DNA from: Alienimonas californiensis
GTDB taxonomy: Bacteria > Planctomycetota > Planctomycetia > Planctomycetales > Planctomycetaceae
Direction of reading: 5' to 3'
DNA length: 64,000 bases
Assembly: GCF_007743815.1 (NCBI RefSeq)
Contig: NZ_CP036265.1
Coordinates: forward strand, 1,080,501-1,144,500
The position numbers and the translations under genes are program-made. Each line of letters opens with the position of its first letter. Positions within the stretch are counted from its first letter, which is position 1. The notes beneath the pieces were generated by a model. The model was not told where the DNA came from, did not search any database, and saw only the letters and a list, made by a program, of their open reading frames with translations. This document shows positions 1 to 64,000 of this stretch, piece by piece.

Positions 1-77
1 GGACTGGGAACGGTGCTCGGAAGTCAACGCCCCCTCACCCCCGACCCCTCTCCCCCAAAAAGGGGGAGAGGGGGGAC
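1..77. repeat. Composite ~175-bp element, copy E (cut by left edge)
   Basis: One end of the composite element found in full at 14611-14786, 14826-14998, 26036-26210 and 40057-40234. Visible here are the CCCCCTTTTTGGGGG-type hairpin, the CCCCTCACCCCCGACCCC arm and the start of the core (GGAAGTCA, then the GAACGGTG segment). The other end lies outside the window. It begins about 10 bases past the stop of the minus-strand cytochrome gene, so it probably forms that gene's 3' end hairpin. Confidence 0.75.
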
Positions 78-10042: not shown

Positions 10043-10075
10043 ACCGGCGGCGCCGCAACGTGTCGTGAACGTGTC

Positions 10076-10154
10076 GTGAGCCCGGAGCGCAAGCTCCGGC
10101 CGTCGCCGCAGCCGGCTTTGGAACGCACGGCCGGAGCTCGCGCTCCGGGCTCAC
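10076..10154. repeat. Inverted pair of GTGAGCCCGGAGCGCAAG repeats
   Basis: The left arm, 10076-10103, begins GTGAGCCCGGAGCGCAAG and ends CTCCGGCCGT. The right arm, 10127-10154, is its reverse complement with one internal difference, and the loop is 23 bases. Each arm is itself a hairpin (CCGGAGC/GCTCCGG). A single arm recurs at 63909-63936 and a diverged pair at 40297-40357. It lies between the convergent SRPBCC gene and the kinase-PAS gene. Confidence 0.8.
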
Positions 10155-10186
10155 GGCTCATCGGCGACGACCTTCTTCGAAATTCT

Positions 10187-14610: not shown

Positions 14611-14786
14611 CTCCCCTCGCCCCCTTTTGGGGGAGAGGGGTCGGGGGTGAGGGGGCAGTGATTCCCGATTACCGTTCACTGTCCGCCTGCTCGCCCGTCG
14701 ACCGATTCGTCACCGCACAGTGCGGAGACGTAGGAACCGTGCGTCACCCTCACCCCCGGCCCCTCTCCCTGAGGGAGAGGGGGGAA
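14611..14786. repeat. Composite ~175-bp element, copy A
   Basis: Its left end is a hairpin (CCCCCTTTTGGGGG flanked by CCCTC/GAGAGGGG), followed by the arm TCGGGGGTGAGGGGGC. The core reads GTGATTCCCG ... CGTTCAC ... CCGTCG ... CGTCACCGC ... GAACCGTGCGTCAC. Its right end is the reverse-complement arm CACCCTCACCCCCGGCC, then a second hairpin CCCTCTCCCTGAGGGAGAGGG. The two arms are complementary over ~14 bases across ~100 bases. It starts 4 bases after the stop of the YHS-like gene. Confidence 0.85.
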
Positions 14787-14825
14787 GAGCGACGCGAACC
14801 GTTCTCGGCGTTCGTAGGCCTGCTG

Positions 14826-14998
14826 CCCCCCTCGCCCCCCTTTGGGGGAGAGGGGTCGGGGGTGAGGGGGCGGTGACTTCCGCACGCCCTGCACTGCCCG
14901 CTTCGCTCTCTCGTCGGTTTGTCACCGCAGAGAGCGGAGACCGGTGAACCGTGCCCCACCCTCACCCCCGGCCCCTCTCCCTGAGGGAGAGGGGGGAA
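14826..14998. repeat. Composite ~175-bp element, copy B
   Basis: It has the same orientation and architecture as copy A, separated from it by 39 bases, with both hairpins and the core landmarks TTCCG, CGTCGG, GTCACCGC and GTGAACCGTG conserved. It ends 7 bases before the stop codon of the minus-strand HlyD-like gene. Copies A and B together fill the whole 399-bp gap between two convergent genes. Confidence 0.85.
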
Positions 14999-26021: not shown

Positions 26022-26035
26022 CGGGCGTTTTTCTT

Positions 26036-26210
26036 CCCCCCTCTCCCTCAGGGAGAGGGGCCGGGGGTGAGGGTGACGCACGGTTCACCCGCCCCCGCTC
26101 TGTGCCGTGACGTCCCGGCCGACGGGAGAGGGAGCGGGCAGTGAACCGCAATCGGAAGTCACAGCCCCCTCACCCCCGGCCCCTCTCCCCCAAAAGGGGG
26201 CGAGGGGAGC
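26036..26210. repeat. Composite ~175-bp element, copy C (inverted)
   Basis: A full-length copy in the opposite orientation to A, B and D. It fills almost all of the gap between the convergent cytochrome (+) and APS reductase (-) genes. Both hairpins, the two complementary arms and the core landmarks (GTGAACCG, GTCACGGC, CCGTCGG, CGGTTCAC) are recognisable on the reverse strand. Confidence 0.85.
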
Positions 26211-40056: not shown

Positions 40057-40234
40057 CCTCCCCTCGCCCCCTTTCGGGGGAGAGGGGTCGGGGGTGAGGG
40101 GGCAGTGATTTCTGGACGCTGTTCACGCTCCGTCTTCTCAACCGTTCCTCGGGCCGTCACAGCCTGAGCGGGCGCCTGCGAACCGTGCGCTCACCCTCAC
40201 CCCCGGCCCCTCTCCCTCAAGGGAGAGGAGGGAA
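40057..40234. repeat. Composite ~175-bp element, copy D
   Basis: A full copy in the same orientation as A and B: CCCCCTTTCGGGGG hairpin, TCGGGGGTGAGGGGGC arm, core (GTTCACGC, CCGTTCC, CCGTCACAGC, GAACCGTGCGC) and the complementary arm with the second hairpin. It lies between the convergent FMN/CxxxCP gene (+) and the Gfo/Idh gene (-), after ~24 bases. Confidence 0.85.
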
Positions 40235-63908: not shown

Positions 63909-63936
63909 ACGGCCGGAGCTTGCGCTCCGGGCTCAC
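63909..63936. repeat. Single arm of the GTGAGCCCGGAGCGCAAG repeat family
   Basis: ACGGCCGGAGCTTGCGCTCC then GGGCTCAC, identical in type to the right arm at 10127-10154 except one base. No partner arm is visible within the window. Its GTGAG end (on the minus strand) overlaps the stop codon of the edge gene. Confidence 0.8.
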
Positions 63937-64000
63937 AACGACGCGACGGGGCGGTCTTTCTGTGGGTCCTTCCAGGCCGCGAAGGCCCAGTAGAGAACCG
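63933..64000 (-). CDS. Partial C-terminus of a gene cut by the right edge
   Basis: The last 21 codons of a minus-strand gene entering from beyond the window: V-L-Y-W-A-F-A-A-W-K-D-P-Q-K-D-R-P-V-A-S-L then TGA. The YWAFAAW part looks like a membrane segment end followed by a polar tail. Too short to identify. The stop codon lies within the GTGAG end of the flanking repeat, whose next base would otherwise extend the reading frame. Confidence 0.5.
   Translation of the reverse strand, partial: VLYWAFAAWKDPQKDRPVASL

Follow-up and report, generated by a model that had tools for sequence, protein, structure and literature searches.

BoxC motifs have been known in Escherichia coli since the 1990s, and to our knowledge neither an accepted function nor a way of spreading has been described for them. 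Holder et al. (2015; PMC4666352) count 23 such motifs (BoxC/PIT/TM) in E. coli K-12, and report by CD and NMR that the E. coli BoxC sequence forms a triplex in solution. According to the same paper, K-12 has five inverted BoxC pairs, always of a type A with a type B motif and with spacers of 16, 26, 27, 27 and 59 nt in the paper's table; the type A member mostly has a mismatched stem and an arm ending in GGGG. The abstract links BoxC to instability, and the discussion mentions prior work in which the E. coli motif had no terminator activity. An origin bias is described there for K-12, and not for other E. coli strains or bacteria, and E. coli BoxC was found to have no association with mobile elements.

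The window analysed here is a stretch of 64,000 nucleotides of Alienimonas californiensis (C1:1080501-1144500 of a single-contig genome of 5,475,215 bp). By its sequence, the composite repeated in this window is an inverted pair of BoxC, or intrastrand-triplex, motifs around a core of ~90 nt, and it is a new, long-core variant of the BoxC doublet in Planctomycetota. A sequence-only reading of the window had considered the composite impossible to name; as an inverted BoxC pair it can be named, and the cross-phylum composite now has a name. The same reading had counted five copies of ~175 bp, which we confirm, the coordinates of the four full copies being correct within 2 bases; the cut copy is also present, but its end had been set at 77, about 3 bases too far. 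The two hairpins it had called different are indeed of two kinds, more precisely two known types of one motif (BoxC). The features are collected in Table 1.

Table 1. Doublet copies in the window, parts of copy 1, sites compared with A. chondri (positions in the genome or in sampled stretches) and palindrome families at RAYT-like genes
Feature	Position	Strand	Remarks
Doublet copy 1, full	14611..14786	+	best-scoring genome copy (covariance model)
Left hairpin CCCCTCGCCCCC-TTTT-GGGGGAGAGGGG, G.A mismatch of E. coli type 'A mm'	14613..14640	+	sequence, triad test, Table 1 of PMC4666352
Left third-strand arm GGGGGTGAGGGGG	14643..14655	+	sequence, triad test
Core, ~90 nt	14656..14746	+	length kept, sequence not kept in sister species
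Right third-strand arm, complement of GGGGGTGAGGG	14747..14757	+	sequence, triad test
Right hairpin CCCCTCTCCC-TGA-GGGAGAGGGG, type B-like	14760..14782	+	sequence, triad test
Spacer, 39 nt	14787..14825	+	separates tandem copies 1 and 2
Doublet copy 2, full	14826..14998	+	tandem with copy 1
Doublet copy 3, full, inverted	26034..26209	-	
Doublet copy 4, full	40058..40234	+	
Doublet copy 5, truncated by window edge	1..74	-	full extent C1:1080403-1080574
Shared sites	1842884, 1274763, 2400592, 1292414		last in opposite orientation
A. chondri-only sites	L182:10031, L185:12445, L194:2350, L198:9281, L198:14519		
A. californiensis-only sites	1249072, 1775988, 1781932, 1276861/1277073		
Palindrome families at RAYT-like genes			R1 GCTTGCGCTTCGGGCT; T GGGCGTCAGCCC-type; R4 GCTGACGCTTCGGGTT; R2 GCTTGCGCTCCGGGCT; R3 CGAAACCGCAAGCG

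Anatomy of the doublet

The left half of the doublet reads C[CT]CCCCTC[GT]CCCCC-TTTT-GGGGGAGAGGGG, YC, GGGGGTGAGGGGG and then the core; after the core, the right half reads CCCTCACCCCC, GR, CCCCTCTCCC-loop-GGGAGAGGGG, RGAM. By sequence, each end combines a Y-R hairpin with a third purine strand that fits all purine-motif triad rules: 10 out of 10 triads are found in 54 of 54 right ends and in 50 of 53 left ends (one left end has no exact testable arm), the triads are only G.GC, A.AT and T.AT with the arm read antiparallel to the hairpin's purine arm, and none of 54 shuffled ends yields a triplex candidate. The complementary GGGGTGAGGG arms pointed out earlier are real, and in the triad test they correspond to the third strands of this candidate triplex. 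The left unit has a mismatched stem, a loop of TC/CC (not TTA) and the arm GGGGG; the right unit has a perfect stem, a CC loop and the arm GGGT. The base before the Y adjoining the stem is C in all 57 listed flanks, GTAG at the hairpin foot is found in none of the 57, and CGT(C) is merely a common 5' neighbour of doublets. Four of the K-12 pairs (L321-L324), read directly, have the layout seen in A. californiensis with shorter cores. A larger repeat of ~170-180 bp, present at several places per genome, encloses an E. coli BoxC pair (L321:939-1120, L328).

A covariance model built from 54 copies returned 146 rows; 98 were kept, and 48 were dropped (42 opposite-strand echoes of the same palindromes and six with E > 0.001). 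There are thus ~98 copies in the 5.475-Mb genome, and weak copies may be missed because the model scored the best 150 of 9225 candidates. Genome-wide, the exact pattern GGGGGTGAGGGGG-N70..100-CCCTCACCCCCG gives 70 rows vs none for the reversed control; three of these rows (200420, 487677 and 3047576) have a differing core start. Ten pairs of copies are arranged in tandem, with spacers of 35-40 nt that are alike where readable. We also observed a long doublet form of 235 bp, itself multi-copy (L016:10228-10462, L076:9592-9825, L081:8492-8726 and others); in this ~235-nt form the core has another palindrome (GCCCGAGGCG..CGCTTGCGCTTCGGGC) nested inside it.

The core has a steady length, 90.7 ± 2.6 nt in A. 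californiensis (n = 53) vs 90.6 ± 5.3 nt in the sister species A. chondri (n = 24), and a loose sequence: A. californiensis copies diverge from the consensus by 0.3% in the right end, 5.0% in the left end and 20.1% in the core, with no correlation between decay of the ends and decay of the core. At three sites shared with A. chondri the ends are 88-100% identical, and alignment of the cores needs 21-33 gap positions. Since the ends stay alike while the cores drift, the ends must be held, either for recognition or for host function; ends kept for host function would look the same as ends kept for mobility. The conserved islands that the sequence-only reading saw in the core hold within A. californiensis, but are not kept at the shared A. 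chondri sites compared. Nor can the core be taken as the defining part, as equal ends surround cores of unrelated sequence in A. chondri, other genera and Proteobacteria (among the matches listed, unrelated-core composites occur in Cupriavidus, Methylobacterium, Hyphomonas, Roseimaritima and others). As far as these alignments go, the core does not define the element; its ends and the length of its core do hold.

A structured bidirectional 3'-end RNA, which had been offered as one explanation of the core, finds no support. Cores fold like their shuffles (mean z -0.38, n = 53; +0.21 in the sister species, n = 24), double-sided changes are missing in 37 of 39 predicted pairs, the mutual information of the core gives nothing either, and the islands are lost at shared sites; the only Rfam match in the window is a tRNA. 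Folding, covariation and mutual information thus give no support to a structured non-coding RNA.

A first scan of named genomes for the element gave no match, and blastn of the element against E. coli, with low-complexity filtering on, gave one partial match. The 23-base right end is patchy within the class (51 of 297 genomes), and the two-arm pattern is found in 11 of 120 genomes of the family.

Placement, gain and loss

All copies but one in the sampled stretches fall in gaps between predicted genes, the genes being those of our own codon-usage caller (the window and stretch L009 share 499 bases). The distance to the nearest stop codon is mostly 3-40 nt, with copies about 15 nt behind the stop, and distances to start codons spread widely. 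In the DNA sampled outside the region empty of doublets (see below), copies are held by 30 of 116 convergent gaps (26%), 29 of 423 co-directional gaps and four of 135 divergent gaps (3%; convergent vs divergent, Fisher p ~1e-7); these rates are not genome averages because the sampled stretches over-represent copy-bearing places. In the window itself the 3'-end placement proposed earlier stands, but the accompanying count of three convergent gaps does not: according to our home-made gene caller, all four gaps holding the five copies are convergent.

20 element-bearing pieces of A. chondri (267 kb) were mapped by protein to 2.04 Mb of A. californiensis DNA, and the status of each site was judged by inspecting the neighbour genes of the mapped elements. 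Among mappable elements, four matched sites are shared, five are A. chondri-only and four are A. californiensis-only (L182 and L194 in the second group and 1276861/1277073 in the third rest on gene coordinates and the copy list). Presence and absence at these diverged sites could partly reflect old loss, and there is no clean empty site alignable base by base in Alienimonas because its intergenic DNA is too diverged. Loss takes a recognizable form: site 1249072 has a doublet in A. californiensis vs one hairpin in A. chondri, and between alx and sstT of E. coli two strains are without exactly 76 nt between the CCCTCTCCC arms, one hairpin remaining. The geometry is like that of REPIN excision in the passages of Bertels and Rainey (PMC3116915) cited here. 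In sampled gaps we counted 73 doublets vs 10 solo hairpins, four of which keep an arm. At another site (1292414 vs L189:3025) the doublet is reversed between the species, as if the segment between inverted ends had flipped.

The placement and the species comparison bear on a host-maintained 3'-end element, i.e. a barrier behind convergent genes that works both ways on RNA or DNA (as a terminator, exonuclease stop or supercoil sink), with mobility incidental. The tight placement at stop codons, the bias to convergent gaps and the drift of cores between kept ends at shared sites all fit such an element, and so does the finding that three of the five A. chondri-only sites have another palindrome family in the matching A. 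californiensis gap while A. chondri has another palindrome at A. californiensis's own site 1775988, as if the palindromes were interchangeable. However, none of 72 convergent gaps of at least 20 bp at 3.06-5.475 Mb holds a doublet, although gap lengths are similar, the doublet has no U-tract, and the E. coli motif did not act as a terminator in earlier work cited in the discussion of PMC4666352. We consider this explanation rather unlikely.

RAYT-type insertion is not known to leave a target duplication. In 38 single copies of the doublet the longest flank match is 0-4 nt, no more than in mispaired flanks, and no active jump of the doublet was seen. These copies argue against a classical MITE of a DDE transposase with terminal inverted repeats, and a MITE with target duplications was rejected on them; the imperfect inverted ends of ~40 nt, the fixed size and the intergenic location would suit a MITE, but no autonomous copy was found, and each end is itself a palindrome, like REP/REPIN and unlike DDE elements, so that a MITE has very little chance of being the right description. 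The wider claim of a non-autonomous mobile element fares better: gain and loss between sister species, ~98 copies (best 150 of 9225 candidates) and kept ends around drifting cores speak for it. The expected target-site duplications are absent; against it stand the lack of a transposase linked to the family (in the RAYT loci described below) and the missing association with mobile elements in E. coli (PMC4666352). The inverted BoxC doublet probably spreads as one non-autonomous, REPIN-like unit that most likely moves in trans or through fork processing. By analogy with REPINs, its folded ends (hairpin or triplex) would be exposed on single-stranded DNA at forks, where a strand-processing enzyme or repair process would act on them, and new copies would be inserted without target duplication. 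Most surviving insertions would be those in the short space after a stop codon, sparing reading frame and promoter; surviving doublets may serve as two-way 3' barriers, and a doublet can shrink to one hairpin by loss. Similarity between copies drops weakly with distance, from 0.72 to 0.685 (Mantel rho -0.16, p 0.0065). Local spreading by strict neighbour hopping is unsupported, because the decay is weak and the most similar pair of copies is separated by 817 kb.

Putative REP-RAYT systems are present in the A. californiensis genome: there are five Y1_Tnp (RAYT-like) genes (3812274, 5145228, 956187, 3264405 and 3322136; L049-L053), and all five are bounded on both sides by a distinct palindrome family of their own. 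BoxC ends flank none of these five genes and none of the 50 RAYT loci scanned in seven relatives (62 are listed, some of them weak); the sole BoxC copy near a relative's RAYT locus among the 50 lies ~1.8 kb away (L164). RAYT models, the first with seven seeds, detected beside the BoxC copies of named relatives only the known A. chondri RAYT. A hidden RAYT between neighbouring copies (L015 11213-11857, L010 6902-8137) was rejected, the genes there not being transposases by inspection. Copies of family R4 crowd next to their RAYT gene (L051, 956187; copies at 972596-1006741), with five of 31 within 50 kb of the RAYT vs 1.0 expected (first 2.98 Mb, one strand; tested post hoc), and this crowding suggests distance-limited spread. 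The R2 palindrome pair (GAGCCCGGAGCGCAAGCTCCGGCCGT and its complement) is also observed in the window, at 10062-10168 and 63909-63939.

Chromosomal region

The most surprising feature of the doublets, and the part most worth following, is their regional confinement. The stretch that runs from 5.347 Mb across 0 to 3.048 Mb holds 97 of the 98 copies and the remaining 2.3 Mb a single one, at 3863728 (Rayleigh R is 0.73 for the 98 copies and 0.70 for 84 loci with neighbours joined; all from the best 150 of 9225 candidates). Sampling of 780 kb at 3.06-5.475 Mb yielded no left or right ends of BoxC doublets and no solo hairpins. Two RAYT-linked families are thinned there: R1 has 14.1 copies per Mb in the 3.06-5.475 Mb sample vs 25.4 in the 1.0-2.45 Mb core, and R2 has 7.7 vs 14.4. 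A distinct composite palindrome (GGCGAGCG-GGGGGCGTCAGCCCCC .. GGGGGCTGACGCCCCC-CGCTCGCC) is commonest where BoxC doublets are missing, at 4.0-4.5 Mb (L104, L123-L126).

GC skew, taken over 101 stretches, clearly distinguishes two chromosome arms and changes sign at ~1.38 Mb (bootstrap 1.34-1.89) and ~4.5 Mb (4.47-4.87), the first change being the origin by the usual skew rule. With the skew-inferred origin placed at 1.40 Mb, 72 of 84 loci are no more than a quarter genome away from it, and one of 84 falls in the quarter of the origin-terminus distance nearest the terminus (best 150 of 9225 candidates). 'Origin' is used here in the sense of the skew, because DnaA matches (229 and 3822331) and ParB matches (1534973, 2402178 and 4123824) disagree with each other and with the skew minimum. 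Within the sampled stretches no parS-like sites or DnaA-box clusters were found, and there is no coding-strand bias; a 16S search had no match in the A. californiensis genome, with controls positive in only nine of 14 cases. Doublet orientation relative to the fork (50 of 83 loci, p 0.08) is not claimed as a bias. The element neighbours of A. chondri would agree with the confinement: those on 16 of the 20 pieces map to 0.76-2.99 Mb, with no match in the empty region and four pieces unmapped on the 2.04 Mb used as target (about three of the mapped pieces were placed via a single gene, and some matches are weak).

In E. coli, 15 of 18 K-12 loci (positions from Table 1 of PMC4666352) are within a quarter genome of oriC (p 0.0075). 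Both this and the confinement of A. californiensis doublets to the half around the skew minimum would agree with a fork-linked instability motif: replication would stall at its triplex-forming ends, and template switching would copy or delete them without an enzyme, so that the distribution follows replication biology; the exact deletion between direct-repeat arms in E. coli and the instability link in the abstract of PMC4666352 point in the same direction. But such a motif accounts for loss better than for how dozens of dispersed doublets, with a fixed core of ~90 nt, were gained, and the authors of PMC4666352 saw no bias towards the origin in other bacteria or in E. coli strains other than K-12; we judge it improbable.

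With a REPIN-like mobile doublet as the preferred reading, it is possible, if doubtful, that palindrome families hold chromosomal territories: BoxC doublets would be copied only in an origin-half nucleoid domain in both Alienimonas species, R4 is densest by its own RAYT, and T is commonest in the BoxC-empty half. If so, the mobility of small elements would be limited by distance or replication domain, and the K-12 origin bias would be the same rule in another phylum. The genome offers ~98 long-core doublets (best 150 of 9225 candidates) that stop at a sharp chromosomal boundary, a second species of the genus has also been sequenced, and the five RAYT-palindrome pairs of this genome act as internal controls; the BoxC mover and the origin-side confinement therefore become testable.

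Comparison with known systems

The doublet is similar to REPINs with RAYTs of Pseudomonas, as described in the cited passages of PMC3116915, in that an inverted doublet is the unit, the spacer is less conserved than the ends while its length is kept, and loss occurs by a deletion that extends from the left end across the spacer and into the other end. Unlike REPINs, it flanks no RAYT, has no GTAG foot and has a triplex third strand in its end. The GTAG- and CGTC-tagged REP dimers in the cited passages of PMC3733652 are likewise dimers of palindromes whose spacers are conserved or structured; they are mostly found downstream of genes, and the CGTC class is also without a dedicated transposase; however, CGTC elements are described there with stems of 8-9 bp and an A-T foot, whereas the stems of the BoxC doublet are G+C-rich and 10-12 bp long.

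The closest likeness is to E. coli BoxC. Shared features are the Y-R hairpin, the G.A mismatch variant, the GGGTGAGGG third strand, intergenic location, inverted pairing of two different types, reduction to one hairpin between strains and, in K-12, the origin-half bias. The two differ in the core (~90 nt and family-conserved in A. californiensis vs 16-59 nt in E. coli), in the stem (longer by one or two bases in A. californiensis), in the left-unit loop between stem and third strand (TC/CC rather than TTA) and in the number of doublets (~98, from the best 150 of 9225 candidates, vs five). Copies of A. californiensis lie behind stop codons, whereas E. coli motifs are, according to PMC4666352, more often upstream of ORFs, and the regional bias is far stronger in A. 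californiensis.
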